Origin: Candidatus Poribacteria bacterium | GTDB lineage: Bacteria > Poribacteria > WGA-4E > WGA-3G | DNA: 64,000 bases | Direction of reading: 5' to 3' | Assembly (NCBI GenBank): GCA_007571305.1 | Contig: RKRR01000078.1 | Span: 38,128-102,127 of the forward strand | Part shown: in pieces, positions 11,755 through 61,595 of the stretch | Numbering within the stretch: position 1 is the stretch's first letter | How the letters are laid out: every line of letters begins with the position of its first letter | The notes under the pieces: generated by a model | Told to the model about the DNA's origin: nothing | Databases searched by the model: none | The model's input: the letters and a program-made list of their open reading frames with translations, nothing else | Position numbers and translations under genes: made by a program

Positions 11755-11914
11755 TAACCTAAGTTGCCACCTTATCGCATAACCTGTTAGGGTGTGCAGC
11801 TTCGGGCGCAAGAAACCAAGATTTCCTACGCTACGAAATGCTGCGGATCCTGAACGTTTTCACTGAAACATAGCAGATGCATTTCTAAAATTGTGTCTGT
11901 AGCAACTTAGGTTA
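11755..11914. repeat. MITE-like element, TIR type 1 (TAACCTAAGTTGC...GCAACTTAGGTTA)
   Basis: Perfect 13-bp terminal inverted repeat, internal core gcataacctgttagggtgtgc. Confidence 0.85.
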
Positions 11915-12150
11915 TATTACGAAATGATCCCTCTGGTGTGACCCATAAAAAGAAAGTAGGGTCGAGATGATTGCACAAATTTGGGCATTTCTCAGTAATG
12001 TCTGCCCTATTTGGTGCAGTGTTTTCCAAGTATTACTGCTAAAGACTGTCTAATCTCACATTTAGCACACTGTCTCTGATTGGCACATAAATTGCTCACT
12101 GCTTATTATTATGTCTGCTATTTCAAGGCAACCTATATTAGGAGGAAAAC

Positions 12151-12969
12151 ATGACACGATTATCCATCTGGACCATTTTCTTCAGCGTTGTTATTTTGTT
12201 AGCGACGACCTACGCGAATGCTGGGCTTGATGGGAGACTTGTCTTTTATCTGAGCTTTGACAACACTAAAGGGCAAACGATTGGTGATACTTCCAGCAAC
12301 GGTCTTGATGCAGAGATCATTGAGAATGCCAAGATTGTGAAGGGCAAATATGGGGAAGCGATTCATATTACGAACAACGGACAGGATTGCGTCAGTATCT
12401 CTTCTCACGAAAAGTTAAAATTCACAGATGAAATAACAATGACAGCATGGATCCACTCTCAAGAAACGTGGGAAGGCAAGAAGGTGCATTGGATAGATAA
12501 AGGGTGTCATTGGTTTGAAGTCGAGTGGGGAGCCTCTTATGGCATCGGTAGTATCGATATCGGTAACGGACCAGAGATATGGTTGTTTTTGGGGGCGCGG
12601 GATGACCGCGGGATTTCGGATCGGCAAGAATTCATCGTTCCGCATGAGATGCAGGAGAAAAGGTGGCATCATATTGCGGGAAGTTACGACGGAAAAACGA
12701 TGAAAATCTATTTAGATGGTGATGTCATGGGCGAAGAAAGAAGGGAATTCAACTTCTCTGGCGATAATATCGCAAGTGTCTGGATAGGATGTGCAAGAAA
12801 CAAATACGCATTTGTCAATGGCACCATTGATGAAGCTGCGGTCTGGCGACGGGCACTCAGCGAAACCGAAATCAAACAAGCAATGTCGGGAAACTTTCTC
12901 GCTGTTTCACTGACCGATAAAGTAGCAACGACTTGGGCGAATCTCAAAGCAACGTTTGTATACCCATGA
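12151..12969 (+). CDS. Secreted LamG/concanavalin-A-like domain protein
   Basis: Signal peptide plus DGRLVFYLSFDNTKGQTIGDTSSNGLDAEI...WHHIAGSYDGKTMKIYLDGDV...IDEAAVWRRALSETEIKQAM. Confidence 0.88.
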   Translation: MTRLSIWTIFFSVVILLATTYANAGLDGRLVFYLSFDNTKGQTIGDTSSNGLDAEIIENAKIVKGKYGEAIHITNNGQDCVSISSHEKLKFTDEITMTAWIHSQETWEGKKVHWIDKGCHWFEVEWGASYGIGSIDIGNGPEIWLFLGARDDRGISDRQEFIVPHEMQEKRWHHIAGSYDGKTMKIYLDGDVMGEERREFNFSGDNIASVWIGCARNKYAFVNGTIDEAAVWRRALSETEIKQAMSGNFLAVSLTDKVATTWANLKATFVYP

Positions 12970-13052
12970 GAGAAGGTCGATGTTCCAGTTTTCTCAAAAT
13001 AATGCAACCTTTTAAGACCTCAATTACGTCCCCTAAATCACAGGAATTTTTT

Positions 13053-14279
13053 ATGCGAAAACAATTGCATGCAATATGGTTTGTTGTATTTTTATCGTTA
13101 AGTTGGGTAGTGTCCATTTCCGACGCAGCAGAACTCAAAATAGAAAAGACACTCACCGAAACGAACGGTTTGGCATCCAACACAGTGCTTACCATTTTTG
13201 AAGACAGTCGTGGGAATATGTGGTTCGGAACACCTAAAGGAGTTACCCGTTATGATGGAGAGAATTTTCGGACCTTCACCACAGACGATGGATTAGCACA
13301 AAACACGATAGGACTTATCTTTGAAGACCAACAAGGGATGCTCTGGTTCGCTGATGGTATGCTTTCCGACGTTGTGGAAAGAGGAAAACCTATGGACATG
13401 TCATGGATGGAAACGCCTTTAAGTGAACTGGATATCACGCCGCATCCCGAAACGTCTGAAGGAATGAAAACGCATCCATCCTTAAAAGGCGTGAGCCGCT
13501 ACGATGGGCATGCGTTCAGAATTTTCACGACAGCCGATGGACTCGCGGGCGATACCGTCACGAATATAATTGAGGATACGACAGGCACACTTTGGTTCGC
13601 GACAGGGTTCGGTGTGAGTCAATACGACGGTGAAACGTTCAACAACATTGCTATGAACGGACCGATGGGGATGAACATCTTGCCCGAATCGTGGAATCAA
13701 GTCACAGCAATTGTACAGGATACAGCAGGAAATTTTTGGTTTGGCAGTGCTGCCGGCATCACCTACTACAACCTCAAAACGTCCGGTTTCCGCCATTTCG
13801 GGATTGATTCGGATTTCACGCTTTTTCAAGAGATGGGGGAGGCACATAGCGCATACATAACAGATCTGCAGTTCGATGCAAAGGAAAACCTCTGGATGAG
13901 TCAAGATGGGACAAGCGAGGAGAGTTCCGGGATTCGTCAATACAATGGCAAAAAACTGACAACTTTTCCCCAAAGTGCAGAACTTCCGATGAACAGCGTT
14001 AACAATATCATGCAGGATAGCAGCAGTAACCTTTGGTTCACGGGTGTTAAGAAACTACCTCCAAAGATGCATGAAACCGAGGACAGTGTGAGTATGACTT
14101 TCCCTGAAGTTGAATCCGGCGTAAGTGTCTACAATGGTGAAAAGTTCCAAAACTTTAACATAGACGACGGGCTGCCGAGTAACCGCGTCTGGTCAGTATT
14201 TGAGGACATCGATGGCAAACTCTGGTTCGCCACAGATTCTGGTGCTGTAGTCGGGATTTATCTGCCTTCCCAAAAATAG
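13053..14279 (+). CDS. Two-component-regulator-propeller repeat protein (no kinase domain)
   Basis: Repeated GL.SN.V..IFED..GN.WFGT..GV.RYDGE.F units; signal peptide from ATG 13053. Confidence 0.85.
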   Translation: MRKQLHAIWFVVFLSLSWVVSISDAAELKIEKTLTETNGLASNTVLTIFEDSRGNMWFGTPKGVTRYDGENFRTFTTDDGLAQNTIGLIFEDQQGMLWFADGMLSDVVERGKPMDMSWMETPLSELDITPHPETSEGMKTHPSLKGVSRYDGHAFRIFTTADGLAGDTVTNIIEDTTGTLWFATGFGVSQYDGETFNNIAMNGPMGMNILPESWNQVTAIVQDTAGNFWFGSAAGITYYNLKTSGFRHFGIDSDFTLFQEMGEAHSAYITDLQFDAKENLWMSQDGTSEESSGIRQYNGKKLTTFPQSAELPMNSVNNIMQDSSSNLWFTGVKKLPPKMHETEDSVSMTFPEVESGVSVYNGEKFQNFNIDDGLPSNRVWSVFEDIDGKLWFATDSGAVVGIYLPSQK

Positions 14280-14376
14280 CTATCAACTGTTAACTGTCGC
14301 TGGCTGGAAAAGGAAACGTTCCTGAAACGTTTGCGTTCTTGCTGATCGCTGATGACTACTCAAGGAGACAAAACAG

Positions 14377-17300
14377 ATGAAAAGGATTCTTCAAAACATC
14401 ACTTGCTTGTGGATGGCGATTCTCTGTGGCATTCCTCTCCTGTTAATCGGTTGTGTAGAAAAAGAGATTACGCGTATAGCGGACTGGGAAACCCATTTTA
14501 CGGATGTCTATTTCGCAGATGCCAAACACGGATGGGTTGTCGGACATCAAGGATGGATCCTTCATACTGCCGACGGGGGTGAGAACTGGGAAAAACAGAC
14601 GGTGAACACACATGAGGATTTCAAAGCCGTCTATTTCACAAATCTCCGTAACGGTTGGGTTGTCGGAGATAAGGGATTGATTGCCACAACGGATGACGGT
14701 GGACGACACTGGACCCTACAAAAGAGCCAAACTTACGCGCTGTTTTTGGATGTCTTTTTTAGCAACTCAAAGACCGGCTGGATTACTGGACAGGATGGGC
14801 TATTATACACAAAAAATGGTGGAAAGACATGGCATCACCAAGAAACAAGCGAGTTCGGACTCGGCGGTATCTGGTTCATAGACAAGCACCGGGGATGGAT
14901 CGTCGGAGATTACGACCGAATCTTTCTCACTACAGACGGCGGTCAAACGTGGCATAGACAAGATAACATCGTGAGAGAAGATCAAACAACAACAGTTTGC
15001 AACCTCTATACGGTATTTTTTACAAATGCTTCTAAGGGATGGAGCGGTGGCTCAGACGGGACTATTTTCCATACCACCAACGGTGGGACAGAGTGGCACT
15101 CACAGGATAGTCGGCTCCCACCAATTTATGGACATGTCCGTCCAACCGTCAATGACTTCGATTTCATTGATGATGACTACGGCGTGGCGGTTGCACAGGG
15201 TGGGTTTATCATCCGAACCGAAGATGGTGGGGATAATTGGAGATTAACAGAAAACCAGACCAAGAATGACTTGATGGGTGTTCATTTTGCGACACCGAAA
15301 CAGGCATGGGCGGTCGGTTGGAACGGCACCCTCCTGCACTCGACAGACGGTGGCGTAACATGGAACATGCGGAGCGGCACGACAGCAGATACTCTGCAAA
15401 GTGTCGCATTTGCGGATGCAAATCGTGCAGTTGCCGTCGGAGAGAAAGGCACAATTGCAACGAGCAATGACAGTGGTAAAACTTGGACCAATATCGAAAT
15501 GGACACAATGGACACATGGCACCGCATTCGAAATCTGTCATTTGCCACTGACAGAGAAGGTTGGGCAGTTGGTGACGGGGGACTCATCCTCCACACAACC
15601 GATGCGGGTCAGACGTGGGAACGGCAAACCAGCGGATGGTGGTATACCCTCAATGCCCTCCATTTCATCAATCCGCAAAAAGGCTGGATTGTCGGAGACT
15701 TAGGGACTGTGCTGCATACAACAGACGGCGGCGAAACGTGGATACAACAAGCCCCACGATATTTCCACGAGATGATAAAAGGCATCTTTTTCCTCAACGA
15801 AAGAGAGGGATGGGTGGTAGGTTGGCCCGGTATCGTTTTCCATACCACAGATGGTGGATTGACGTGGAAACGGCAAAATAGCAACAGTTACAACGAACTC
15901 TATGCCGCCTATTTCATCGACAGACATACCGGTTGGGTAGTCGGACAATTGGGCGAGATTTTGCATACCCTCGATGGTGGTAAAACGTGGAAATTTCAGC
16001 GGAGTGGAACGCAGGCAAATTTGAACAAAGTCTACTTTGCCGATGAAAATCACGGATTAATTGTGGGGGACGAAGGTGTTATTTTGACCACTACCAATGG
16101 CGGTATCACGTGGGTACGACAGAACAGCGGCACATCCAATGATCTCTATAGTTTTTCGCTCTCCCCTGACGGTATACTCGCTGTTGGTGAAGGTGGTATT
16201 GCGATGCGCTACTCTGTGGACACGGAGAAGTTCATTGTTGAATTGCCTCCTGTTGCGCAAGAAATGGAAAGGGTTGAAAAACCGATTGAACCACTTGAAT
16301 ACCACTGGGAAATCGTCCGTCGGGGAAGCTGGCAAGCCGAATTTACCGATACATATTTCCTGTCTGCACAGCACGGGTGGACAGTGGGGAGCGGTGGTAC
16401 CATTTTACGAACCACAGATGGTGGCACTACATGGCAGACACAGCAGAGCGGTGTATCAGAAACATTGCAACGGATCGTCTTTATTGATGAAAACTACGGC
16501 TGGATTACCGGTCAAGGTGTCCTGCTGCGAACCGAAAATGGCGGTAAGAGTTGGCAAGTTATTCGTACAGGATTGAAAAACTTTCACAATATTCCTGCGA
16601 TACACTTCATCAATCCGAAGGAGGGATGGCTCGGTGTTGATAGAGGACAAATCCTGCGGACACGCGATGGTGGTAAAACTTGGATGCCTCAGCAAACGGG
16701 AACAACGCATCAACCGATTACGCACTTACATTTCATCAACAGTCGAGAGGGATGGGCAGTCGCGCCACAACGGTGGACCGGCGGATTTATTCTGCACACG
16801 GTTGATGGCGGTGATTATTGGGAAATCCAAGCCCGGACCCATCATCGTGGCATCGGTGTCCATTTTGCAAATGCCCAATCGGGTTGGGTGGTAATGGAAA
16901 ATGGGACCTCACTCCTTACCAGAGATGGCGGAGAGAGTTGGCAACAGGATTTGGAAATAGCGCGCGGCATTAAAGGGACGAATTTTGATATCCAATTGCT
17001 TACCGTGAAATTCCGCAATCACACTGAGGCTTGGGCAATTAATGGCGAACGTACAATCCTTACAACCCAAAACCAAGGGAAACATTGGGAAAAAATGGAT
17101 TTTTTGCTTGACCAAGGAACCATAGATGATGAGGGAAGAAGTTGGATAGAGAGAATGGTAGAAGAACGTCCTTTTGGATCCTCAGGGCAAATTAACAACG
17201 CGCACCTACTCTCAAATGGGCAAGGTTGGGTAGTTTCCGGTGAACAGATTCTCGATAGGGAATCGGCCAGAGCTGATATTGGTGGTTCCGAAGAATCAGG

Positions 17301-18252
17301 TGTATCTACCGGTCAGATCTACGCCACCACAGATGGCGGAAAGACGTGGCAGCATCAACTCGGTGAATCGCTCGATAACTTCCGTGATGTGCAATTTCTT
17401 GATGAGCAAAACGGTTGGATCGCCGGGGACAACGGTGCTCTACTATCAACAGAAGATGGTGGAGAAAATTGGAAGCACTTGCAGAGCGGCACCACCGCCC
17501 GTATCGTCGATGTTCACTTCATCAGTCTTGATCCGAAATGGGGTTGGGCAATGGAGAAGGATGGAACCTTGCTTTATACCATAGACGGTGAGGACTGGTC
17601 GGTAGACAACAAACAGGAACTTCCCGATCGTGTCCTACCTGATCTTCCCCAGCATAATCTACCTCCACTCTCTATAAATGAGGTTGCCTTCGGCAAGTTC
17701 TCTGAAGGATGGGCGGTCGGTGAGAATGGAGAGATAATTCACAATCTGGATGGGGGACCGATTTGGACGCTGCAGCGCACCTCAACCGGTAAAACCCTCA
17801 CGAGCGTTGATATGAAATTCGCACCCCTCGGTTGGGCGGTTGGGAGCAATGGTGTCACCCAGCGAACCGTCAACGGTGGCGAGTATTGGAAGTTCCACGA
17901 GACGCATGTTGGCTACGACCTTTACGCCGTATCGTTCATTACGAAACGAAAAGGGTGGGCGGTCGGACGGGCAGGGATTATCCTATCCACCTCCGATGGT
18001 GGATTCACTTGGGAAGCGGAACTGAGCAGTGTAGTGGAGACGCTTTACGATATTCTGGCACTCTCAGAACAGGAACTTTACGCTGTCGGTGCCTCTGGAA
18101 CGATCATTCATTCGACAGACGGTGGGACAACTTGGGAACAGGAGCACACCGGTGTAGACAACGACCTATATGTTATCACACAGGTCAAAGATGGAGGGAC
18201 GTTGTGGGTCGTTGGGCAGGGAGGCGTTGTGCTGCGTCGCCCTAAACGTTGA
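14377..18252 (+). CDS. Giant Ycf48/BNR-type repeat beta-propeller lipoprotein
   Basis: Lipobox LLLIGC; about 26 copies of W.VG..G.I..T.DGG.TW plus two degenerate copies. Confidence 0.9.
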   Translation: MKRILQNITCLWMAILCGIPLLLIGCVEKEITRIADWETHFTDVYFADAKHGWVVGHQGWILHTADGGENWEKQTVNTHEDFKAVYFTNLRNGWVVGDKGLIATTDDGGRHWTLQKSQTYALFLDVFFSNSKTGWITGQDGLLYTKNGGKTWHHQETSEFGLGGIWFIDKHRGWIVGDYDRIFLTTDGGQTWHRQDNIVREDQTTTVCNLYTVFFTNASKGWSGGSDGTIFHTTNGGTEWHSQDSRLPPIYGHVRPTVNDFDFIDDDYGVAVAQGGFIIRTEDGGDNWRLTENQTKNDLMGVHFATPKQAWAVGWNGTLLHSTDGGVTWNMRSGTTADTLQSVAFADANRAVAVGEKGTIATSNDSGKTWTNIEMDTMDTWHRIRNLSFATDREGWAVGDGGLILHTTDAGQTWERQTSGWWYTLNALHFINPQKGWIVGDLGTVLHTTDGGETWIQQAPRYFHEMIKGIFFLNEREGWVVGWPGIVFHTTDGGLTWKRQNSNSYNELYAAYFIDRHTGWVVGQLGEILHTLDGGKTWKFQRSGTQANLNKVYFADENHGLIVGDEGVILTTTNGGITWVRQNSGTSNDLYSFSLSPDGILAVGEGGIAMRYSVDTEKFIVELPPVAQEMERVEKPIEPLEYHWEIVRRGSWQAEFTDTYFLSAQHGWTVGSGGTILRTTDGGTTWQTQQSGVSETLQRIVFIDENYGWITGQGVLLRTENGGKSWQVIRTGLKNFHNIPAIHFINPKEGWLGVDRGQILRTRDGGKTWMPQQTGTTHQPITHLHFINSREGWAVAPQRWTGGFILHTVDGGDYWEIQARTHHRGIGVHFANAQSGWVVMENGTSLLTRDGGESWQQDLEIARGIKGTNFDIQLLTVKFRNHTEAWAINGERTILTTQNQGKHWEKMDFLLDQGTIDDEGRSWIERMVEERPFGSSGQINNAHLLSNGQGWVVSGEQILDRESARADIGGSEESGVSTGQIYATTDGGKTWQHQLGESLDNFRDVQFLDEQNGWIAGDNGALLSTEDGGENWKHLQSGTTARIVDVHFISLDPKWGWAMEKDGTLLYTIDGEDWSVDNKQELPDRVLPDLPQHNLPPLSINEVAFGKFSEGWAVGENGEIIHNLDGGPIWTLQRTSTGKTLTSVDMKFAPLGWAVGSNGVTQRTVNGGEYWKFHETHVGYDLYAVSFITKRKGWAVGRAGIILSTSDGGFTWEAELSSVVETLYDILALSEQELYAVGASGTIIHSTDGGTTWEQEHTGVDNDLYVITQVKDGGTLWVVGQGGVVLRRPKR

Positions 18253-18391
18253 CGTGCCTCATTTTACCTCATGCCTTTAAAACGAGAAACGCGCATTCAA
18301 TTTTAACCGCTCACTCACAGAATAAGATGTTATGCCTTACCTTCATTGATAAGATGAACAGGCAAGGCACAAAAAGCCTTCCTATGTTCTA

Positions 18392-19324
18392 TTAGGCATG
18401 GTCTTCAGGACGGACCCCTTTTGTAAAAGTGCCGAAACCGAAGAACGTTGGCGCATAATCACCGACATAATCGACAACACTCTTATCAGGAATTGCGTCC
18501 TCCATCCCCATACACCAATAGCAACCGTTGACGAGGAGACGACGAAGCCCTTCGCTTTCTAAGTCGACAGAGGCACCCATTGTTGTATTGAAGACGCGTG
18601 AGGTGTTGCCTTCATCGCCTGTATAGGTTTTAATCCACACCATCGGCATTGTAACTGCATCGGGTTTTGGGGCATCTGTTGGGTCCATACCGACCAATAC
18701 CTGTCCGTGGATAAGTACCTGTGAGTCGCCTGTCAATTCCGTAATGCCGTAGACATCGGACGGCCCCCAGACATCGTCAACACCTTTGAGAATAGGATGA
18801 TCTTGCATTGCCTCGTCAATTACGCCGCGCGCGCTCTCTTTGCCGTGATGTCCATGGTGGTTAACCCAAGTCTCTCCGAGTACTTGCCTGCCATATCCCC
18901 CCTCAAACTCCTCACTGTTAAAACTGTATTTTGCATACGGACTATCGAGGTTGCGGCTATAACTGAAAGCGTGTGTCGCTGTGCGGAGCCCCATCACAGG
19001 TTTGCCAGCATTCGTATAGTCAACGACATACTTCATTTGGTCATCGGGCAGTTCGCGGAAACGTGTGAACAGCACCATCATATCCGCGGATTCTAAATGG
19101 TGGAGTCCTGGAATGTTCGTCTGTACCTCCGGATCGATTTCCCCTGATTCCGGATCAATAGCAAACAGCACCGTACATTTAAATCCATGGTGCGTAGCTA
19201 ATACCTTCCCTAACATCGGCAACGCCTCTTCAGAGCGATACTCTTCATCGCCACTGACGAGAACAATATGCTTGCCGTTTCCAGGTCCTTCGTTTCCTTC
19301 GTAAACAACCCATTCGTTTTTCAT
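18392..19324 (-). CDS. ThuA-like domain protein
   Basis: HIVLVSGDEEYRSEEALPMLGKVLATHHGFKCTVLF...LVLFTRFRELPDDQ..YVVDYTNAGKPVMGLRTATHAF; start probably at MKNEW. Confidence 0.75.
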   Translation of the reverse strand: MKNEWVVYEGNEGPGNGKHIVLVSGDEEYRSEEALPMLGKVLATHHGFKCTVLFAIDPESGEIDPEVQTNIPGLHHLESADMMVLFTRFRELPDDQMKYVVDYTNAGKPVMGLRTATHAFSYSRNLDSPYAKYSFNSEEFEGGYGRQVLGETWVNHHGHHGKESARGVIDEAMQDHPILKGVDDVWGPSDVYGITELTGDSQVLIHGQVLVGMDPTDAPKPDAVTMPMVWIKTYTGDEGNTSRVFNTTMGASVDLESEGLRRLLVNGCYWCMGMEDAIPDKSVVDYVGDYAPTFFGFGTFTKGVRPEDHA

Positions 19325-19469
19325 GAAAAGATAAACTCCATACAATAAGATTTTGCATGAGTATAGCATACTTTCCTGATAAAGTTACACCGAATCTGTT
19401 TCGGAGCATTAAAGATTCTGTCCATCATAGAGAAAAAACTTTGACAAATGTCTGGAGTTACCATAAAAT

Positions 19470-19625
19470 TAATCTAAGTTGTTACCTCTATGATTTCATA
19501 TCCATGAACGCCTGTTTTCAGCGAGAATCCTTCATTTTTGCGAAAAGTTTGGTGTATTCCGTGTGATTTTCGGTGTGAAGCTGCACACTCTAACAGGTTC
19601 TGCGACGAGGTGGCAACTTGGGTTA
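19470..19625. repeat. MITE-like element, TIR type 1, interior variant A
   Basis: Starts taatctaagttg, ends caacttgggtta. Interior 19531-19580 is identical over 50 bp to 28637-28686. Confidence 0.85.
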
Positions 19626-19702
19626 AAATTATTAAAAGGAAGACTTGAAAACATTATCTAAAATGGAGTTTTATTTTTCAATAACCCTCAACTAAATAGT
19701 AA

Positions 19703-19820
19703 AGGACTTACGCATTTTTGACAATAGCACGGTTTCTGAGTAGGCGAACCGACAAAAAACACACGGTTCTCTGACACAACCTAACAGGTTATGCTACAGA
19801 AGCACAGCCTACGTAAGTCC
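19703..19820. repeat. MITE-like element, TIR type 3 (GGACTTACG.../...CGTAAGTCC)
   Basis: aggacttacgca ... tacgtaagtcct inverted ends; interior contains acacaacctaacaggttatgctacagaagcac. Confidence 0.75.
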
Positions 19821-19847
19821 TATAGCATAAAAACTGGAGGATCTGGA

Positions 19848-21203
19848 TTGTTAAAAGTATCAAAGTTTGGCGGAAGCTCCCTAGCATCAGCGGAGCAAGT
19901 CCGCCGTGTTTGCGACATTATTACTGCCGATCCGGGACGCCGTATCATTGTTGTTTCTGCTCCCGGAAAACGAGATAACCAAGACATCAAAGTAACAGAT
20001 CTGCTTATCGCCGCGGCATCCCAACGACTCATGGGAAAAATCGGTGCTTCGGAGTGTGCTGAAGTGATAGAACGGTATCGGGGCATTGCGTCTGAATTGA
20101 AACTCCCGCCGGAAGTTATGGATTCTATCGCTCGTGACCTAACGGAACGTTTGGAAAATAGCACAACCGACACCGACCTCTACATGGACACAATGAAGGC
20201 TGGTGGTGAAGACAACTGCGCTCGCCTTATCGCACAAGTTTTACAGGCACGTGGTGTAGACGCACATTATGTGAACCCGAAGGATGCTGGCTTACTGCTT
20301 TCGGACGAGCCAGGCAATGCCCAAGTGCTACCTGAAGCATACAACCGACTGCGGGATCTACACGAGCGTCCCGGTATCACCATTTTTCCCGGCTTCTTCG
20401 GATACTCGAAAGATGGCAATATTGTCACTTTCTCGCGCGGTGGTTCAGACATCACAGGAGCTATTCTCGCCAGTGCTGTTCGAGCAGAAGTCTATGAGAA
20501 CTTTACAGATGTCGATTCTGTGTTTGCCGCAAACCCATCTATCGTTGAAGATCCGGTGCCGATCTCGGAGTTAACCTATCGTGAGATGCGCGAACTCTCT
20601 TACGCAGGATTTTCTGTATTCCACGACGAGGCACTCGAACCGGTCTACCGAGCACATGTGCCTGTCAATATTCGAAACACCAATAACCCGAAAGCAGATG
20701 GCACACTGATTGTTCCAAGCCGCACGTCAACAGATATTCCGGTCGTTGGTATCGCAGCAATGGACAGCGTCTGCTGTATCTATCTCAGTAAATACCTGAT
20801 GAACCGCCAAATCGGGTTTGGCAGACGACTGTTGCAGATATTGGAAGCCGAAGGTATCTCTTTTGAACACGTCCCGTCGGGTATAGACAATATGTCCATC
20901 ATCCTTCGAGAAGAAAACCTATCTGCGGCAAAAGAGAAGAGAATTGTCGAACAAATTCGGCAAACACTGGCACCGGAAGACATTTTCGTGGAACGCGGAC
21001 TCTCTTTAATAATGGTCGTAGGTGAAGGTATGCGTCATACTGTAGGCATCGCCTCGCGTGCTACAGGTGCATTAGCCGATGCGAAAGTCAACATTGAGAT
21101 GATTAATCAAGGTTCTAACGAGGTCAGTATGATGTTCGGTGTAAAATCCGAAGATATGGAGTCTGCCGTTCAAGCACTTTATGCGGAATTTTTTGATTCC
21201 TAA
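19848..21203 (+). CDS. lysC: Aspartate kinase
   Basis: LLKVSKFGGSSLASAEQVRRVCDII...FSRGGSDITGAILASAVRAEVYENFTDVDSVFAANP and C-terminal ACT domains. TTG 19848 behind ggagg is a likelier start than 19791. Confidence 0.9.
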   Translation: MLKVSKFGGSSLASAEQVRRVCDIITADPGRRIIVVSAPGKRDNQDIKVTDLLIAAASQRLMGKIGASECAEVIERYRGIASELKLPPEVMDSIARDLTERLENSTTDTDLYMDTMKAGGEDNCARLIAQVLQARGVDAHYVNPKDAGLLLSDEPGNAQVLPEAYNRLRDLHERPGITIFPGFFGYSKDGNIVTFSRGGSDITGAILASAVRAEVYENFTDVDSVFAANPSIVEDPVPISELTYREMRELSYAGFSVFHDEALEPVYRAHVPVNIRNTNNPKADGTLIVPSRTSTDIPVVGIAAMDSVCCIYLSKYLMNRQIGFGRRLLQILEAEGISFEHVPSGIDNMSIILREENLSAAKEKRIVEQIRQTLAPEDIFVERGLSLIMVVGEGMRHTVGIASRATGALADAKVNIEMINQGSNEVSMMFGVKSEDMESAVQALYAEFFDS

Positions 21204-21366
21204 CAAATAGTGACTTGGATGACACCGGTTACTGGAAAGGACAACTTCTCGCGAAGGTAGTTATCCACCTTTAAGTCCGCCTAATTATCACTGATGCTGT
21301 TGATATGCATCGAAAACCCGTTTTTGACAACGGAAAAAACGGAGCAAAAATTCAATCGTTAAAAAA

Positions 21367-22206: not shown

Positions 22207-22257
22207 ATATGTGCGCGCGGTGTCCACTGCCGCTCTGAGTTCATGACGGAGGTTACC

Positions 22258-23094: not shown

Positions 23095-23127
23095 ACATCG
23101 CTAATCAGTGTGTTCAATGTTTTACAG

Positions 23128-23148
23128 GCGCGCTTTGTCAGCGCGCCG
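23128..23148. other. Short GC-rich hairpin (ggcgcgctttgtcagcgcgcc)
   Basis: Perfect inverted repeat downstream of the oxygenase gene. Confidence 0.5.
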
Positions 23149-23201
23149 AAAAACAGTCTTTGTTGAACCCTCAACGATTTCTCATCCCTACCTATCTGAT
23201 T

Positions 23202-23326
23202 TATAGTAAAATCCGAAAACAGGTTCACCCTTGTAGCGTAGCCTGTTAGGCTGTGCCAGTCAGAACAGATAACTTCAGCGTTCACACGACGCTATGAGTG
23301 TCCAAGTAATTACGGAATCTACTATA
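23202..23326. repeat. 125-bp MITE-like element with IS630-type TIRs (TIR type 2)
   Basis: tatagtaaaatccg ... cggaatctactata. Near-identical 125-bp copy at 55765-55889. Confidence 0.9.
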
Positions 23327-23573
23327 ATACCCCTAACATTTATATAGATTTTTCTCTCAGAAGGCACTTTTTAACTGGATCCTTAAAAAACAGGAATTAT
23401 TTGGCTTTTTCTTGACATTTTTTTGACAAATATGTTAACGTCTTGGCAAATGAGGTCGGCAGCATCCGTTTTATAACGTAAATCTACCATAAGTTCCATC
23501 ATAAAAAGAGCAGCGAGCTCTTATGTTCTGGAACACACAGTTTTCCATTCCATCAAAAGGAGATATTCAAGCC

Positions 23574-27700: not shown

Positions 27701-27717
27701 AATAGTTCCTTCCTCAG

Positions 27718-28574: not shown

Positions 28575-28734
28575 ATACCCCAACTTGCTACCTATAGGAT
28601 TTCGGATACACGAACACCTTTTTTTAGAGAGACTCCTTCATTTTTGCGAAAAGTTTGGTGTATTCCGTGTGATTTTCGGTGTGAAGATGCACAACCTAAC
28701 GGGTTATGCTACATAATCGGCAACTTAGGTTATA
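28575..28734. repeat. MITE-like element, TIR type 1, interior variant A
   Basis: Left taccccaacttgctacc, right ggcaacttaggttata. 50 bp identical to the 19.5-kb copy. Confidence 0.8.
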
Positions 28735-48798: not shown

Positions 48799-48837
48799 AC
48801 GGAACGCGTTGTAACAACCAATTTTCATAGAGCACAG

Positions 48838-48870: not shown

Positions 48871-49056
48871 CTATGTTGAAGCCTCGAATACCACTGACTT
48901 TAGGCACTTGAACTTATAGACAGAGGAAATTTAAAATTTGGCATGTTCCCTGTACTTGTGCTATAATATGAATGTCGTACAGTTATCCCATCTTTAGGCA
49001 AGGACGATACATTCGCCAGATGAAGTAAAACACACCACTGAAATGAGGGCAAACCC

Positions 49057-49317
49057 ATGAAAGCACGACGTAACCTAACAAAACATGCCTTTGATAAAGG
49101 AGATTTGCTCGATCAAAAATGGCTCACCTATTTTTTAACCGTTGTTCTCATACTCCTTGTTCTTGTCTTTGTTGTTCTATTATCGCCTACCTATAAGCGG
49201 TATGTTGTTGATACTGTTAAATCTGTGTTTTATGGTGGAAAGCAGAAAGCACCGAAACCGAAAGCGGCTCCAGTCAACTTTCAGCCACCTGCACTCACGA
49301 AGGGTCTCATATTTTAA
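49057..49317 (+). CDS. Small single-TM protein of unknown function
   Basis: One TM (YFLTVVLILLVLVFVVLL), basic/proline-rich C-terminus; plausible start region. Confidence 0.5.
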   Translation: MKARRNLTKHAFDKGDLLDQKWLTYFLTVVLILLVLVFVVLLSPTYKRYVVDTVKSVFYGGKQKAPKPKAAPVNFQPPALTKGLIF

Positions 49318-49475
49318 CCCAAGTTGCGAGTTCTGTAGCATCACCTGTTAGGTTGTGCCTCTTCGCACGCAGGAGACTGACGGTCTCCTACGCTACGAGA
49401 GACTGCGGATTCTGAGCGTTTTTCACTGAAAATAGCAGATGCCTCTCTGAAATTGTGTCCGTAGCAACGTGGGTT
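49315..49475. repeat. MITE-like element, TIR type 1, interior variant B
   Basis: taacccaagttgc ... gcaacgtgggtta; internal hairpin aggagactgacggtctcct and core gtagcatcacctgttaggttgtgc. Confidence 0.87.
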
Positions 49476-49572
49476 ATTTTACGGAACAGACAAAAACGTG
49501 AGGATTAGGAGGCACGAGGCTAACTTTAGGACACCCATCTGTCCTTTCTATCGACGAAACTCGGGGGAAAGA

Positions 49573-51161: not shown

Positions 51162-51233
51162 TGGAGGAGAAAGAAGTTTTTGATAATTCTATAGCACGTA
51201 ATGTAAGGGAACATCACAAGAAGGAGTTTTCTG

Positions 51234-51986: not shown

Positions 51987-52067
51987 CTGCTTGGGTACCT
52001 CACCGCTCCGCCTCCGCTGGCGAGGTTTCTAACCTCGTCTACCTTATGCCCAACGGGATGTAAAGAA

Positions 52068-53144: not shown

Positions 53145-53173
53145 TATCTATCAATTATCAAACGGAGAAAATC

Positions 53174-53986
53174 ATGGATACCGTAAACGACTTTGAATTC
53201 AAACAGAGAAAATATATGCCAGTCTTTCCAAAAATAAATGGCAAAACGACTGTCTATATAGAAGGCTATCCGTGTGAAGACGACGAACCTATGGCAGCGA
53301 CCAATTTTCACGGTGAACAGATTACTACGTTTTTCGAGCAACTCAAGCGATACTTTTCGATCAATGAATTGGTGTATATCGGAATTGACAGTTTTATCTA
53401 CTATCATGAAGGAGACATTACCAAATCCGTCGCACCTGATATCTACATTGTGTTTGGCGTTGATAAATACCCCCACCGCCGCAGTTTCTATACATGGGCA
53501 GAAGGCGCAGCACCCGTTGCGGTTTTTGAGTTCCTCTCCGACTCAACAGCACGGCAAGATCGGAATGAAAAAGTCGACGTGTATCTCAGTGATATAGGTG
53601 TCCAAGAGTATTTTATACATCAACCGGAGTTGAAGAAGCCTGCGGAATTTCGCGGGTGGCGGCGGGATCTATCAGGGAACACTGTTGAGATGGAACCCGA
53701 CCCACAAGGCGGTCTGTTCAGCGAGGCGTTAAATCTCTATTTTCGCTGGGAGGAACAACAGCACACCCACGTTAGACTGCTCCGTCCATATCTACCAGAC
53801 GGCACGCCGATTACAACTTCTCTCGAAGAACATCATCTGAGAGAAGCAGCACAAGCACGCGCAGAAGGAGAAGCACAACGCAGACAAGATGCCGAAAAAC
53901 TCGCAGCAACTGAAGCACAACGTAGGCAAGATGCTGAAGCAGAATTAGAGAAACTCCGCGCGCAACTCGCAAAATTTCAACGTTAA
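53174..53986 (+). CDS. Uma2-family (DUF820) putative endonuclease with coiled-coil tail
   Basis: YIGIDSFIYYHEGDITKSVAPDIYIVFGV...APVAVFEFLSDSTARQDRNEKVDVYLSDIGVQEYFIHQP; C-terminal AQRRQDAEKLAATEAQRRQDAEAELEKLRAQL. Confidence 0.85.
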   Translation: MDTVNDFEFKQRKYMPVFPKINGKTTVYIEGYPCEDDEPMAATNFHGEQITTFFEQLKRYFSINELVYIGIDSFIYYHEGDITKSVAPDIYIVFGVDKYPHRRSFYTWAEGAAPVAVFEFLSDSTARQDRNEKVDVYLSDIGVQEYFIHQPELKKPAEFRGWRRDLSGNTVEMEPDPQGGLFSEALNLYFRWEEQQHTHVRLLRPYLPDGTPITTSLEEHHLREAAQARAEGEAQRRQDAEKLAATEAQRRQDAEAELEKLRAQLAKFQR

Positions 53987-54097
53987 TAGTTACCCAACGA
54001 AAGCGTTAACAGGACGCGATGTCCGTATTTGCAGCACAAACTGTTAATGTTGATAACTTGTGAAATCCAACATCATCCGTGATACAGACAAGAAACA

Positions 54098-55612
54098 ATG
54101 AACACCCTCTACTTCGGCGACAATCTTGAAATTATGAGAGAAATGGACGACCAAGGTGTCGATCTGATATGCACCGACCCGCCCTTCAACTCCGGCCGCG
54201 ACTACAATACCTTCCTCACCGACTCGAAGGCACAATCCAAAGCGTTCACGGACACATGGACATGGGACGACCCTGCACAAGATACTCGAGCCGACATAGA
54301 GAGACGCGCACGCACCAGCGACACCTATAAAGCGTTGGATACCTGCTTGAAAGGTTATGACCTTGTACTACAAAATGCAGTGTCAGGAAACAAAGGCGCG
54401 ATGCGGGCATACCTCGCGTTTATGGGACCACGGCTGGCGGAGATGCACCGACTCCTGAGAGACACAGGGAGCATCTACCTCCACTGTGACCCAACCGCAA
54501 GCCACTATCTCAAAGGCATAATGGACGCGATCTGGGATCAAAACAATCGCAAAAAGAATGAGTATTTTCGAAATGAAATTGTGTGGTGTTATAGAGGTGC
54601 AGGGTATCCTAAAAAAGATTTTGGCAGAAGACATGACATCATCTTAAGATATAGTAATGGACCGCAATATATTTTTAATCTAGATGACATCAGAGAAGAA
54701 TATGCTGAAGCCACAATAGAAAGGTTTAAACATCATATTGGGAATAAACGAAAAGCAGGTGATTTCGGAGTCCAAAAATTGAATCCGCTCGGGAAGCATC
54801 CCGATGACTGGTGGCAGATTCAACCGATTGCACCATCATCTAAGGAACGCCTCGGTTATCCGACACAGAAGCCGCGTGCCCTCTATGAACGCATGATAGA
54901 AGCGTCCAGCAACGAAGGCATGTTGGTGATGGACCCGTTCTGTGGGTGCGGCACCACAATAGACGCAGCACACACCCTCCATCGATTCTGGATAGGTATA
55001 GACCTCACTATCCTCGCACTCGATCCGATGCGCCGCAGACTCGCTGACCGACACGGCTTAGAACCCTCAAAAGACTACGAAATCCACGGCTACCCGACAA
55101 ATATGCAAGAAGTCCATAAACTCGTCCGAGATGAAAAGAAATATCACGACTTTTCTAACTGGGCAGTCACACGACTCGGACTTCAACCGACAAAATCTGT
55201 CGGGGACGGCGGAAAAGATGGCGAGGCACACGTCGGGCATATCACGCTCTGGGACCCAGAGGAAGGTCAAACAACCGACACGCGTATCCTCGCAGAAGTC
55301 AAAAGCGGTAGACCCACTATCACACAAGTCCGCGCCTTCTGTCATGTCATGGATAAAAACGATGCTATCGGTATATTTATCACGATTGAACCCGTCAGTG
55401 CAGGTATGCGTCAAATTGCAGCAGATATGGGAACGTTCTATCATAATAACGAAACATTTCCGCGTCTGCAGTTCTGGCAGATAGACGACACCTATTTTGA
55501 AAATCCGAGTTCCTTAAAGGATATTATCCGTCTCCCTGCGGCCTGGCTTGCACCGATGCGAAGAATAGAAAGGCATTTTACAGACACACAGATGACGCTG
55601 CTCCGTTCATAA
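54098..55612 (+). CDS. Site-specific DNA methyltransferase fused to C-terminal PD-(D/E)XK/Mrr-like domain
   Basis: DLICTDPPFNSGRDY and MVMDPFCGCGTTIDAAHTL MTase motifs; C-terminal GDGGKDGEAHVGHI...TRILAEVKSGRPTITQVRAFCHVM. Confidence 0.82.
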   Translation: MNTLYFGDNLEIMREMDDQGVDLICTDPPFNSGRDYNTFLTDSKAQSKAFTDTWTWDDPAQDTRADIERRARTSDTYKALDTCLKGYDLVLQNAVSGNKGAMRAYLAFMGPRLAEMHRLLRDTGSIYLHCDPTASHYLKGIMDAIWDQNNRKKNEYFRNEIVWCYRGAGYPKKDFGRRHDIILRYSNGPQYIFNLDDIREEYAEATIERFKHHIGNKRKAGDFGVQKLNPLGKHPDDWWQIQPIAPSSKERLGYPTQKPRALYERMIEASSNEGMLVMDPFCGCGTTIDAAHTLHRFWIGIDLTILALDPMRRRLADRHGLEPSKDYEIHGYPTNMQEVHKLVRDEKKYHDFSNWAVTRLGLQPTKSVGDGGKDGEAHVGHITLWDPEEGQTTDTRILAEVKSGRPTITQVRAFCHVMDKNDAIGIFITIEPVSAGMRQIAADMGTFYHNNETFPRLQFWQIDDTYFENPSSLKDIIRLPAAWLAPMRRIERHFTDTQMTLLRS

Positions 55613-55764
55613 CACAAACTGTTCGTTTGTGTGGTATTGTAAAACTATGCGTTGTATCACCAACATTTATTTCCTTATTTTATCCGTTCTCCTGCTGGCA
55701 AGGGGGTGCGGGTATGGATGGGCAACGTTTCCGGAAAATGAAGCATAGTCTTTTAGAAATGTTA

Positions 55765-55889
55765 TATAGTAAAATCCGAAAACAGGTTCACACTTGTAGC
55801 ATAGCCTGTTAGGCTGTGCCGGCCATAACAGATAACTTCAGAGTTCACACGACGCTATGAGTGTCCAAGTAATTAGGGAATCTACTATA
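55765..55889. repeat. 125-bp MITE-like element with IS630-type TIRs (copy 2)
   Basis: tatagtaaaatccg...gggaatctactata, near identical to 23202-23326. Confidence 0.9.
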
Positions 55890-55899
55890 AGAATACAAC

Positions 55900-56053
55900 A
55901 GTTTGGACAATTCGTATCACATTCTGAGGGATTTTTCAAAGATCAGCGAATTTTATAGAAATTTCCCTCCCAACAGCATTTGGCAAAAAATAACGGTGGT
56001 GCTCAGTGCTTGACACAGGCTAACAGCCTATGCTACAGAAGGTCGTCCAAACT
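55900..56053. repeat. MITE-like element, TIR type 4 (AGTTTGGAC...GTCCAAACT)
   Basis: 9-bp perfect inverted ends; interior acaggctaacagcctatgctacagaag is a core variant. Confidence 0.6.
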
Positions 56054-56059
56054 TTAGTA

Positions 56060-56221
56060 TAACCCAAATTGCGACGGACAAGTTTTTAGGTACATAGATG
56101 CCGTTTTTCAGCGGAAAGCCTTCAGTATTCGGATGTTTTTGTAGCATAGGAGACCGTTGGTTTCCTGTGGATATTTATGCACAACCTAACAGGTTATGCT
56201 ACAAGGTGGCAACTTAGGTTA
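56060..56221. repeat. MITE-like element, TIR type 1, directly upstream of gcvH
   Basis: taacccaaattgc ... gcaacttaggtta; core in inverse orientation gcacaacctaacaggttatgctac. Confidence 0.85.
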
Positions 56222-56242
56222 AAAATAATATAGAGAGCGAAA

Positions 56243-56629
56243 ATGATCCCACAAAACTTAAAATACATGGAAAGCCATGAATGGGCAAAGCAAGAAGGCG
56301 ACATTGCTACTATCGGTATCAGCGATTATGCTCAATCCGAAATTCAGGATATCGTCTATGTTGAATTGCCCGAAGTTGGCACTGAACTCACACAGAAAAC
56401 AGAGTTCGGCGTGATAGAATCTGTCAAAGCCGCATTTGACCTCTATGCCCCTGTTAGCGGAGAAGTTATTGCGGTCAACGAATCCCTCCTTGATGCCCCA
56501 GAACACGTCAATGAATCTCCTTATGATGAGGGGTGGTTTCTCAAAATCAGAATGACAGACACCGGCGAACTTGATGCCCTTCTTGATGCCGATAGTTATC
56601 AGGCACATATTGAGGCGGAGCATGCTTGA
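56243..56629 (+). CDS. gcvH: Glycine cleavage system H protein
   Basis: [71 protein letters not shown]. Confidence 0.97.
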
Positions 56630-59510
56630 AAAACAGAAAAACGGAAGACCTTTCGCAAACCGACATATCGGCCCTCGCCCAGAGGATATTGAATTGATGT
56701 TGTCAACGCTCGGCTATTCGTCAATGGCTGATTTCGTTGAAGACGTTGTGCCAGCGGACATTCGTGTATCCTCCCCCTTCAGTTTAGATGGAGCTGCATC
56801 TGGCCTAGGGCGTAGTTTGCAAGCCCATATTGTAAAGTCAGAGTCAGAGGTGCTTATCGCCCTAAAGAAACTTGCTGCCCAAAACCAGGTCTTTCGCTCT
56901 TTTATCGGCATGGGATACTATAATTGCTTCGTTCCCCCAGTCATCCAGCGAAACATTCTGGAGAATCCGGGGTGGTACACCCAATACACACCCTATCAAG
57001 CCGAGATTTCACAGGGACGTTTGGAAGCATTGCTAAACTTTCAAACGATGGTAATTGATTTAACCGGCTTGCCTGTTGCGAATGCTTCTCTCTTGGATGA
57101 GGCAACAGCCGCCGCTGAGGCGATGGGGATGTGTGTTGCAAATGTGAGGCAGAAGAGCAGTCAAAATTTTTTTGTGTCAGAAACCTGTCATCCACAAACA
57201 ATTGCTGTCCTACAAACACGCGCTGAGCCGCTCGGCATTGAATTACAGATCGGTGACCATCGCGATGTCAATTTTGACACACCGATCTTAGGTGCCATCA
57301 CGCAATATCCTGCTACAGATGGGGCGATCTACGATTACAGTAAGTTCGCTGAACAAGTGCATGCCGCTGGCGGTTTATTCGTTACCGCGACGGACCTGTT
57401 GGTACTCACGCTCTTACGCCCCCCCAGTGAGTTTGGTGCTGATATTGCTATCGGTAGCGCACAGCGGTTTGGTGTGCCACTCGGATACGGCGGGCCCCAC
57501 GCAGCTTTTCTGTCCACACATGAAAAACTGAAACGTAGTATTCCCGGACGGATTGCAGGTGTTTCTCAAGATGTGACCGGCAAACCGGCTATTCGCTTAG
57601 CACTCCAAACCCGGGAGCAGCATATCCGACGCGAAAAAGCGACGAGTAATATTTGTACCGCGCAGGTCCTGCTCGCTGTGATGGCAGGGATGTATGCCGT
57701 CTATCATGGCCCCACAGGACTTAAGGACATTGCTGAACGCGTCCATTCCCTCACTTGTATCTTACGTGCAGGACTTGAAGAACTTGGGTTTGCAACGGGA
57801 GAATCACCCTGTTTTGATACTCTCTCCATTGGTGTTCCATCAGGAACAGTGGAGGCGTTGCACGAATCCGCACATGCAAAACACATCAATCTTCGGGTGA
57901 TTGATTCAACACATATCGGTATCTCTTTGGACGAAACGACAACATCTGCTGATGTCGAAGAAATCCTACGGATATTTGGTGCGCGGGCGGGTTTAGAAAG
58001 CGTCTCTGCAAGTGAAATTCCAATAGATTTACAACGGAAGAGTTCCTACTTGACGCATCCTGTGTTCAATAGTTACCATTCTGAAACCGAGATGCTTCGC
58101 TATATCCACAAACTGCAAACCAAAGACCTTTCCCTTGTGAATGCCATGATACCTCTCGGTTCTTGTACCATGAAACTCAACGCTACGGCGGAGATGGTCC
58201 CGGTGACGTGGAACGAATTTGGGGGACTGCACCCCTTCGCGCCACGAGAGCAAGCAGAAGGCTATCAGAATCTATTTTCACAGTTAGAAACGTGGTTAGC
58301 TGAGATAACCGGTTATAGTGGAATCTCATTGCAACCGAATGCGGGTTCACAAGGCGAATATGCAGGACTGTTAGTCATACGTCAATACCACCAGAGCCGC
58401 GGGGAGTCGCATCGTAATGTTTGTTTGATACCAACATCTGCTCACGGCACAAATCCTGCGAGTGCTGTGATGGCAGGGATGCAAGTTGTCGTCGTCGCAT
58501 GCGATACCGATGGGAATATTGACCTCGAAGATCTTCGATTGAAAGCCGATGATCATCGTGAAAATCTCGCAGCCGCCATGATTACATATCCTTCAACACA
58601 CGGGGTCTTTGAAGAGAAAATCCGAGAGATTTGTGATATTGTTCATCAATCCGGCGGACAGGTCTATATGGACGGTGCGAATCTGAATGCCCTTGTCGGT
58701 ATCGGACAGCCGGCAGATATTGGAGCGGATGTCTGTCATTTGAATCTTCACAAAACTTTCTGTATCCCACACGGGGGCGGTGGACCAGGGATGGGCCCTA
58801 TTGGTGTCAAAGCACATCTCACAGATTTCTTGCCCACGCATCCGCTTGTCCCTGTCGGGGGTGACGCTGGAATTGGTGCCGTGTCTGCTGCTCCTTGGGG
58901 GAGTCCGGGTATTCTGCCTATCTCTTGGGCATATATTGCAATGATGGGAACAGAGGGACTTACCGCCGCGACAGAAGTTGCGATCCTGAATGCTAACTAT
59001 ATTGCCAAACGGCTTGCTCCTCATTATCCTGTCCTTTATACTGGAAAGAACGGCTTAGTTGCTCATGAATGTATCATTGATTTGCGTGCTTTCAAGAAAA
59101 GTGCCGGTATAGATGTGACCGATGTCGCAAAGCGACTAATGGACTATGGATTCCATGCACCGACTGTCTCCTGGCCCGTGCTGGGAACAATGATGATTGA
59201 ACCGACAGAAAGCGAATCAAAGGCGGAGTTGGAACGGTTCTGTGCCGCTCTCATTTCAATACGTGAAGAGATAGCGGAGATTGAGGCGGGCGTTGCTGAT
59301 CGGGTAGACAATATGTTAAAGAATGCCCCCCATACTGTGGAGGCGGTTACACAATCTGAGTGGAGTCATCCGTATTCGCGTGAAAGAGCCGCCTTTCCAC
59401 AACCTTGGGTCCGAGAGGCTAAATTTTGGCCCGCAGTCGCGCGTATCAACGAGGTCTACGGGGATAGAAATCTTATGTGTGCCTGTCCGCCTCTTGACGA
59501 ATATTCCTAA
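56622..59510 (+). CDS. gcvP: Glycine dehydrogenase (decarboxylating), full-length P protein
   Basis: [17 protein letters not shown]...[15 protein letters not shown]...[24 protein letters not shown]; 963 aa from ATG 56622. Confidence 0.97.
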
Positions 59511-59511
59511 T

Positions 59512-59668
59512 TAACCCAAGTTGCCAGTTCTGTAGCATCACCTGTGAGGTTGTGCAGCTTCACACCAAGAATGACGCGGAATACACCAAACTTTTCGCAA
59601 AAATGAAGGATTGTCGCTGAAAACGGGTGTTCGTGGATATGAAATCATAGAGATAGCAACTTGAGTTA
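59512..59668. repeat. MITE-like element, TIR type 1, variant A in inverse orientation
   Basis: taacccaagttgcc ... gcaacttgagtta; contains the reverse complement of ttcatttttgcgaaaagtttggtgtattccg. Confidence 0.85.
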
Positions 59669-59671
59669 CTA

Positions 59672-59837
59672 TAACCCCAGTTGCTACGGACGAGATCTTC
59701 GGCATCCAGTCCTATTTTTTACTGAAACGGTTTCATGATTCGGAGGTATTCCGTAGCGTAGGGTGTTGGTCTCCTGCATGCTTAAAATGCACACCCTCAC
59801 AGGTTATGCTGCAAAAGAGCAGCGTGCATAAGTCCTA
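59672..59837. repeat. Hybrid MITE-like element: type 1 left end, type 3 right end
   Basis: Left taaccccagttgctacgg; right ...gcagcgtgcataagtccta (complement of aggacttatgcac); core gcacaccctcacaggttatgctgc. Confidence 0.6.
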
Positions 59838-59981
59838 ATGAATCTGAGCAAGTTTCGCACGTAGTTTAGCCGAGAAAGCTCACCGATCCCAAAAACGTAT
59901 CGAATTAACCAGAAACCTGTCCCAAACGAAGTGGAAAGATTTTACTTGGGCGTTTTTCGTCCAAGAGGCAATAGATAAAAA

Positions 59982-61388
59982 ATGAAAGCAATAATTATAG
60001 GTGCAGGAGAGGTAGGGTTCCATATTGCCAAACTTCTCACTGTCCAAGCTAACGATGTTGTTCTCATTGACGAATCCAGTGCCGCCTGCGACCGGGTGAA
60101 TGAGCAATTAGACTTGCAAACGCTGCACGGATCAGGGGCATCCCCGCGCCTTCTCAAAACCGCTGGGATTGACGAAGCTGAACTTCTCATAGCTGTTACA
60201 AATAGCGATGAGATTAATATGCTCGCTTGTCAGATAGCCAGCAGATACAGTGTCAGCACAAAAATTGCACGTGTCTCAAATCCTGACTATTTCTCCACAG
60301 AAAGTGGTCTGACTCCTAAAGATTTCGGCATTGATCTTCTGGTAAATCCAGAGCAGCACTGTGTTGCTGAATTTGTTCGACTCTTGCAGATACCTGAAGC
60401 GCGGGAGATTGTCGAGTTTGAAGACGGAAAAGTCCAACTTGTTTCCTTTCGTGCTAGACAGTCGAACCCCTTAATCGGAAAATTGCTCGCGGAGTTAGAT
60501 GCGAGTGGCCTGCTCACTGATATCCGTTTTGCTGCTATTAGTCGTCGAGGAGCTCCCAGTAACGGCAACCCGATCAGTAATGGTAGCAGGCACATTATCA
60601 TTCCGAAAGGAACAGATGCTTTGCAACAAGGTGACGAGGTCTTTGTCATCGGTAGTGCGTTGGCAGTGGAACAATTGTTACGCATCAGTGGTATCACGTT
60701 TAATCAGCAGCTTGAGCGCGTTATCATTGTTGGGGCAAGTCCTATCGGCATTGGGCTTGCTCGTGTGCTTGAAGAAAACGGCACCGACGTTAAACTCATT
60801 GAAGCCGATGAAACGCAAGCGCAACTGGCATCCCGAATGCTAAAACGCACCACCGTTTTACAGGGTGACTATCTCCAATATAGACTCCTTGAAGAAGCTG
60901 GTATAGAGGGTGTTAACGGATTCGTCTCGGTTACAGGGGATGATGAAAACGATATTATGGCATGTATGACCGCCAAAGAGAACGGTGCCCAGCGTGTCCT
61001 CGCACTCGTTCAGCGACCGCGTTATCTCCCCTTGTTGGCACGTATTCCGAGACTTGATGGCGCGGTTAGTCGACATCTTACTGTTGTTAGCAATATCCTG
61101 CGGCTCATCCGCCGTGGAAATATAGTTTCTGTTGCTTCGCTCCACGGTATAGATGCAGAAGTCATTGAAATTGTCGCTGGTGTCAACGCGAAAATAGTCC
61201 ACAAGGAACTCTCCTCTTTCAAAACAAGGTTTCCAGAAAATGCCTTTATCGGTGCTGTTATTCGACGGGAAAAACTCATTATTCCAACGGGTCAGTCTGT
61301 TATCCAACCCGCAGATCGAGTGATTGTCTTTAGTATGCCCGGCGCGATTCCAATTGTCGAAGACCTTTTCGCCGAACGCCGAGCCTAA
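59982..61388 (+). CDS. trkA: Trk potassium uptake regulatory protein TrkA
   Basis: MKAIIIGAGEVGFHIAKLLTVQANDVVLIDES and second VIIVGASPIGIGLARVLEENGTDVKLIEAD; two RCK_N/RCK_C modules. Confidence 0.95.
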   Translation: MKAIIIGAGEVGFHIAKLLTVQANDVVLIDESSAACDRVNEQLDLQTLHGSGASPRLLKTAGIDEAELLIAVTNSDEINMLACQIASRYSVSTKIARVSNPDYFSTESGLTPKDFGIDLLVNPEQHCVAEFVRLLQIPEAREIVEFEDGKVQLVSFRARQSNPLIGKLLAELDASGLLTDIRFAAISRRGAPSNGNPISNGSRHIIIPKGTDALQQGDEVFVIGSALAVEQLLRISGITFNQQLERVIIVGASPIGIGLARVLEENGTDVKLIEADETQAQLASRMLKRTTVLQGDYLQYRLLEEAGIEGVNGFVSVTGDDENDIMACMTAKENGAQRVLALVQRPRYLPLLARIPRLDGAVSRHLTVVSNILRLIRRGNIVSVASLHGIDAEVIEIVAGVNAKIVHKELSSFKTRFPENAFIGAVIRREKLIIPTGQSVIQPADRVIVFSMPGAIPIVEDLFAERRA

Positions 61389-61410
61389 AGGGTTGTCGAT
61401 CGTCTATTAT

Positions 61411-61595
61411 CGGTTAAGAGCAGTTTGTAGCATAACCTGTTAGGTTGTGCAGCTAAGCACGCAGGAGACCCACGGTTTCCTACGCTACGAACTTAAGCAC
61501 GCAAACTAACGATCTCCTACACTACGAAATGCCTCCGAATTCAGTGAAAAATGGGACAGGATGCCTAAAATCTTGTGAGTAGCAACTTGCGTTAA
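61411..61595. repeat. MITE-like element related to type 1; left end decayed
   Basis: gtagcataacctgttaggttgtgc core, two cacgca..ctcctac/gctacga units, right end gtagcaacttgcgtta. Confidence 0.65.

Follow-up and report, generated by a model that had tools for sequence, protein, structure and literature searches.

The window analysed here, a 64,000-nucleotide stretch of a draft metagenome-assembled genome of Candidatus Poribacteria, carries twelve copies of a 24-bp core, GTAGCRTARCCTGTTAGGYTGTGC, most of them inside miniature inverted-repeat transposable elements (MITEs); we identify this core as a repetitive extragenic palindrome (REP) of the GTAG type, an established class of mobile DNA hairpins with a dedicated enzyme. 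The original prediction, made from the letters of the window, had listed the twelve sites and assigned them to MITEs with at least four unrelated sets of terminal inverted repeats (TIRs). All twelve are found again, eleven with at most three mismatches, a threshold at which 100 dinucleotide shuffles yielded no match, and the twelfth, at 19583 on the minus strand, with four. As had been claimed, the cores sit between long open reading frames (ORFs), with the exception of 19774-19797, which overlaps by 7 nt the first possible start of the ORF at 19791-21203.

Labelled by their ends, the elements of the window belong to an IS982 type (type 1, ends TAACCYAAGTTGC), an IS630/Tc1-like type (type 2), an IS701 type (type 3, ends AGGACTTACGCA) and a type 4 with AGTTTGGAC ends. 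IS982-type MITEs lie on the plus strand at 11755-11914 (REP 11774-11797, TIR TAACCTAAGTTGC at both ends, family n=68), 49315-49476 (REP 49335-49358) and 59512-59668 (REP 59532-59555), and on the minus strand at 19470-19625 (degenerate REP 19583-19606), 28576-28732 (REP 28689-28712) and 56060-56221 (REP 56179-56202). The IS630/Tc1 type is represented on the plus strand at 23201-23327 (REP 23233-23256, TIR TTATAGTAAAATC / TTATAGTAGATTC, TA target) and 55764-55890 (REP 55796-55819), the IS701 type on the minus strand at 19702-19822 (REP 19774-19797, TIR pair (A)AGGACTTACGYA), and type 4 on the minus strand at 55900-56053 (REP 56013-56036, stem variant GGCTGTTAGCC). Most sites lie in elements with both ends of one type, as proposed, but two do not. 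The element at 59672-59837 (minus strand) is chimeric, with an IS701-type left end, the REP at 59789-59812, and then an IS982-type interior and right end; that at 61427-61594 (plus strand) is an IS982-type remnant that has lost its left end and retains the REP at 61427-61450 and a right end at 61594. Another REP-like hairpin, with a longer stem (GTAGCGTAGGAAACC...GGTTTCCTGCGTGC), is found in IS982-type MITEs, where it points the opposite way to the REP and forms a head-to-head REP pair with it. In the window it occupies 11804-11834, 49363-49396, 56141-56170, 59753-59781 and 61457-61488, and the remnant has a further inverted REP-like hairpin at 61497-61525.

The genome of the window (G000; 4.82 Mb, 200 contigs, 94.4% complete) was analysed at the level of elements over 1.46 Mb (30%), to which the element counts below refer. 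TIR pairs delimit 82 short elements of the IS982 type, 47 of the IS630 type and 40 of the IS701 type, and the core is present in 65, 36 and 35 of these, respectively. They are MITEs by their paired TIRs, their length of 100-170 bp, below that needed to encode a transposase, and the duplication of their target, which differs between the types: 3 bp in a TANNNTA context for IS982 (28/68), TA for IS630 and 5 bp for IS701 (17/36). One IS982-type sequence occurs both interrupted (L039:15780) and uninterrupted (L039:16427), consistent with a TA duplication by the IS630 type. Such nesting of IS630-type MITEs at TA sites within IS982- or IS701-type MITEs recurs at L151:16463, L147:642 and L238:12209 and gives a relative age order.

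No autonomous partner of types 1-3 was found within the 1.46 Mb. In a relative (G022), full-length copies with the type 1 TIR (L275 489-1413 and 3925-4849) encode an IS982 transposase (E 7e-51), and one with the type 3 TIR (L274 543-1634) encodes an IS701 transposase (E 1e-97); none of these autonomous copies has the core REP inside its ends. Because of these full-length elements, at least two of the three end sets belong to identified, unrelated transposase families. The IS630/Tc1-like label is a probable assignment based on the TIR and the TA target. Types 1-3, given their numbers of elements, are solid, and the suggestion of one passenger adopted by several transposase systems is upheld, the passenger being the REP; type 4 is weakly supported since just one example occurs in the 1.46 Mb. 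Relatives present further REP vehicles, with AATGTGAGTTTG ends or TATAGTGAATCC...GTTTTACTATAA ends. That all copies descend from one decayed ancestral element, their ends differing by drift, can hardly be credited: the right ends of the IS701 and IS982 types have a short AAAATTGYGT motif in common, and mixed right ends also occur, but the TIRs, duplication lengths and partner transposase families are distinct and no single TIR unites the copies.

The same explanation is contradicted by the conservation of the core relative to the interior. When elements were selected by their ends and mean information was compared, the core reached 1.61 against 1.10 bits elsewhere in the element in the IS982 type (n=68) and 1.71 against 1.31 bits in the IS701 type (n=36), with a slight excess in the third family. 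No other 24-nt window matches the core across the three types, and its conservation in the IS982 and IS701 types is close to that of the TIRs. The initial description of a conserved interior between varying ends needs to be narrowed accordingly: the 24-bp core alone is common to all types, and the remaining interior is a trait of each type.

Throughout the genome of the window, 577 core matches (306 plus, 271 minus) were counted at no more than three mismatches; the pattern read backwards gave none. A scan of named genomes returned only Candidatus Poribacteria among the matches listed and, within the GTDB neighbourhood, the core was present in 24/24 genomes from within the genus and 0/16 from outside it.

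The identity of the core is disclosed by its fold: three unpaired bases (GTA), an imperfect 9-bp stem and a 3-nt GTT loop, with a DNA fold z of about -4.7. With only GTAGC and CTGTTAG as anchors and the inner stem left free, the copies displayed six complementary stem types. All three free inner pairs were Watson-Crick in 17/34 distinct sequences of the genome of the window (shuffle mean 5.8, maximum 12) and in 18/28 from relatives (mean 3.9, maximum 10). A T7.G21 mismatch was retained in 25/34 and 20/28 distinct copies, respectively, and GTAGC is conserved in elements picked by their TIRs. GTAG-type REPs are recognised by a short hairpin with a GTAG on its 5' flank (PMC3733652); the GTAG and, in the E. 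coli system, also a stem mismatch are required for cleavage at a CT by the REP-associated tyrosine transposase (RAYT) (PMC8266576). The core shares with this superfamily a GTAG 5' of a hairpin in the 5-13 bp range, complementary stem changes, a copy number in the tens to thousands, a mainly intergenic location and, in sister genomes, RAYT flanks. An unpaired GTAG, a preserved mismatch and these flanks make up the anatomy of a single-stranded DNA transposase substrate. This leaves the regulatory or RNA cassette imagined in the original prediction without support, and Rfam has no match for the core. An intrinsic terminator was likewise considered and, on the sequence, rejected because the T run precedes the hairpin instead of following it.

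The same prediction had missed both the REP nature of the core and the enzyme. RAYT searches across the genus revealed, in sister genomes, a clade of proteins of about 223-250 aa flanked by REPs, full-length or nearly so in 18/38 genomes. Core-type REPs flank ten RAYT loci (L212, L219, L220, L222, L224, L225, L227, L228, L229 and L232), typically as an inverted REP immediately before the start codon, a direct REP just downstream, or both, and sometimes in tandem arrays. The loop of the flanking REP (GTT, TTT or TTCC) tracks the RAYT tree, and an NHVH motif and several tyrosines are conserved across the alignment of the clade. We call the proteins RAYT-like, a probable divergent relative of RAYTs, because they score below the NCBIfam cut-off, the REP flanks being the stronger argument. 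Long-stem REP variants are also present at RAYT genes. With positive controls run, this cognate clade was not found at E<=1 in the genome of the window; G019, where IS701 MITEs with REPs also abound, did not yield it either. The sole RAYT of the genome of the window (L031) is flanked by a different REP, GTAGTAGKGCRATTTATYGC; at L031 900-2080 the gene stands amid copies of that other REP, GTAGTAGKGCRATTTATYGCMCG, of which the 1.46 Mb hold about eight. IS200-type Y1 transposases were examined as partners and rejected: the strong PF01797 matches are IS200-like and the core flanks none of 30 loci, the sole core nearby lying 1.1 kb off, within an IS701-type MITE.

The setting of the REPs differs between genomes. 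In the genome of the window, all but 4 of 168 cores have a recognisable MITE end close by; such an end is missing for 40/99 cores in relatives and at 92% of random places. Relatives carry REPs alone, in tandem and as inverted pairs. Inside MITEs, the REP is found about 12-35 bp from one end. Such a constant position and orientation in all families could suggest that the hairpin is a working part of the MITE (a transposase-accessory site, an insulator or an RNA element) that selection on the MITE preserves; the compensatory stem changes and the excess conservation of the core in two families would agree with this. We nevertheless consider it quite unlikely. One hairpin would have to serve three different transposases; moreover, the autonomous IS982 and IS701 copies do without it, it also exists outside MITEs and beside RAYT genes, and Rfam does not recognise it.

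The association of REPs with MITEs also works in the other direction, a point that the original prediction had missed. One IS701 MITE scaffold, TAGGACTTACGCA...GCTCTTTT-REP-...AAAATTGCGTAAGTCCTA, holds different REPs in different genomes: some with AACC/GGTT, GGC/GCC or AAAC/GTTT stems and a GTT loop, others with a TTT loop, a TTCC loop or a long stem. In G022, GTAGGTGCGGTTTCCTAACCGCACC is found in a different element with IS701 ends. In genome G005, the TTCC-loop REPs within IS701 MITEs match those flanking the RAYT of that same genome (L221), and a single IS630-type scaffold is combined with at least three stem types. Finally, at about five of some 200 typed cores of the genome of the window, the junction between two MITE types coincides with the core: IS701 left and IS982 right ends in the chimera of the window (59789), at L141:2682 and at L234:2178, and IS630 left and IS982 right ends at L136:5261 and L152:3817. 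This mixing could result from exchange by a single-strand endonuclease, from recombination or from repeated founder insertions.

These joined elements bear on the other idea put forward at the outset, a recombination hotspot at which unrelated ends came to share the core through exchange at a point of homology or cleavage, with no insertion of a REP. The few elements joined at the core lend it only limited support; by far most typed elements have matching ends, the three families keep distinct interiors and target duplications, REPs in relatives also stand alone, in tandem and at RAYT genes, and exchange cannot account for the origin of the hairpin. As a general explanation it is unlikely.

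We favour, with a probability of roughly 0.85, the reading that the core is the REP of the RAYT-like clade and rides at least three DDE MITE families in a genome where the cognate RAYT was not found, most copies now being MITE passengers. In single-stranded form, this REP would be recognised and processed by one particular RAYT clade within this Poribacteria genus, GTAGCATAACCTGTTAGGTTGTGC being the putative substrate of the L225-type RAYT. REPs would once have been placed just inside one end of short non-autonomous IS982, IS630/Tc1-like and IS701 elements, a RAYT cleaving at the CT beside GTAG having made the original insertions or later exchanges. The DDE transposases would then have performed the amplification in the genome of the window, with elements occasionally recombining at the REP. 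Anatomy and distribution are the basis on which both RAYT-driven entry and DDE amplification are inferred, and the route by which REPs enter or swap between MITEs is likewise an inference.

Several observations weigh against this reading. The place and orientation of the REP are fixed in each MITE family, which a single founder insertion explains as well as repeated RAYT action. The genome of the window is a draft (94% complete, 200 contigs) and the missing RAYT could therefore fall in an assembly gap; this draft quality, together with the coverage of 30% of the genome in the analysis of elements, sets the chief limits. The RAYT-like clade lies under the 80-bit cut-off of NCBIfam NF047646 (REP_Tyr_transpos), at 68.7 bits for L225 and 61.8 for L220, compared with 90.5 for L031, and its action on this REP is a prediction only. 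No autonomous IS630-type element sharing the TIR turned up in the stretches searched, and the core of the IS630 type (n=42) barely exceeds the rest of the element, at 1.68 versus 1.58 bits. The copy number of the genome of the window, the highest of 24 with 481 cores at no more than two mismatches versus 16-94 per relative, belongs to a comparison that varies with the stem types permitted in the search pattern.

Going further, a RAYT or another single-strand endonuclease might swap REPs at fixed sites of MITEs, which would come to match the RAYTs of their genome and let REPs outlive their enzyme on DDE transposons. Such an exchange system is a tentative idea and we regard it as rather doubtful.

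GTAG-type REPs and REPINs with their RAYTs are well described (Nunvar 2010, PMC2817692; Bertels & Rainey 2011, PMC3116915; Di Nocera 2013, PMC3733652), and the Poribacteria repeats resemble them in the unpaired GTAG, the short imperfect hairpin, the many, mostly intergenic copies, the single, tandem and inverted arrangements seen in relatives and the flanking of RAYT genes. They differ in that the copies of the genome of the window lie mostly inside DDE-type MITEs with no cognate RAYT found. In A. variabilis, too, REPs regularly lie within an element with long TIRs, GTAG-15 dimers occupying TATAGGA...TCCTATA palindromes (PMC3733652); there a single palindrome type is involved, whereas in Poribacteria one REP is found in at least three unrelated MITE families, and one MITE scaffold occurs with several types of REP. 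Bacterial IS982, IS630 and IS701 MITEs are likewise short and non-coding, with the TIRs and target duplications of the parent IS, but those of Poribacteria carry, directly inward of one of their ends, a REP hairpin of foreign origin. Contact of REPs with another transposon is also illustrated by ISPpu9 in P. putida, which inserts into the REP, whereas here the REP lies within the MITE at a fixed place (PMC8450116). The literature searched holds no account of this REP family in Poribacteria.

A REP lineage has apparently been amplified to hundreds of copies through three unrelated DDE MITE families with no detectable cognate RAYT, whereas the prevailing view is that a REP relies on a single-copy RAYT of its own. 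If true, this would offer REPs a route to persist or spread after the loss of their enzyme, and would provide a testable place where single-strand (HUH) transposition meets DDE transposition. A further addition, useful for studies of REP recognition, is a divergent RAYT-like clade with a REP loop that tracks its phylogeny.

Two further observations concern REPs in relatives. On the G005 chromosome (OX639973.1), core-type REPs are strand-segregated into two arcs, with 2 plus and 13 minus copies at 0.1-1.3 Mb and 39 plus and 6 minus in the rest (60 places, Fisher p 4e-7, 0/2000 permutations), a trend shared by MITE-borne copies; no such local strand clustering was seen in the genome of the window. 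A replication-strand reading was dropped and the arcs are not used as evidence, because the coarse GC skew and the gene strand do not switch where the arcs do and the MITE-borne copies follow the arcs too. In addition, a two-hairpin sequence of about 33-37 bp, GATGCACKTCGCATCTGGKCGAGTACGCCGCAAA, is inserted within REP hairpins of at least two types in relatives (L128:252-, L286:658-, L291:1367+, L293:1653-, L296:1654-, L297:1654- and L062:5045-); with 13 copies in the other loci examined and one in the 1.46 Mb of the genome of the window, it looks like a mini-element that targets REPs.

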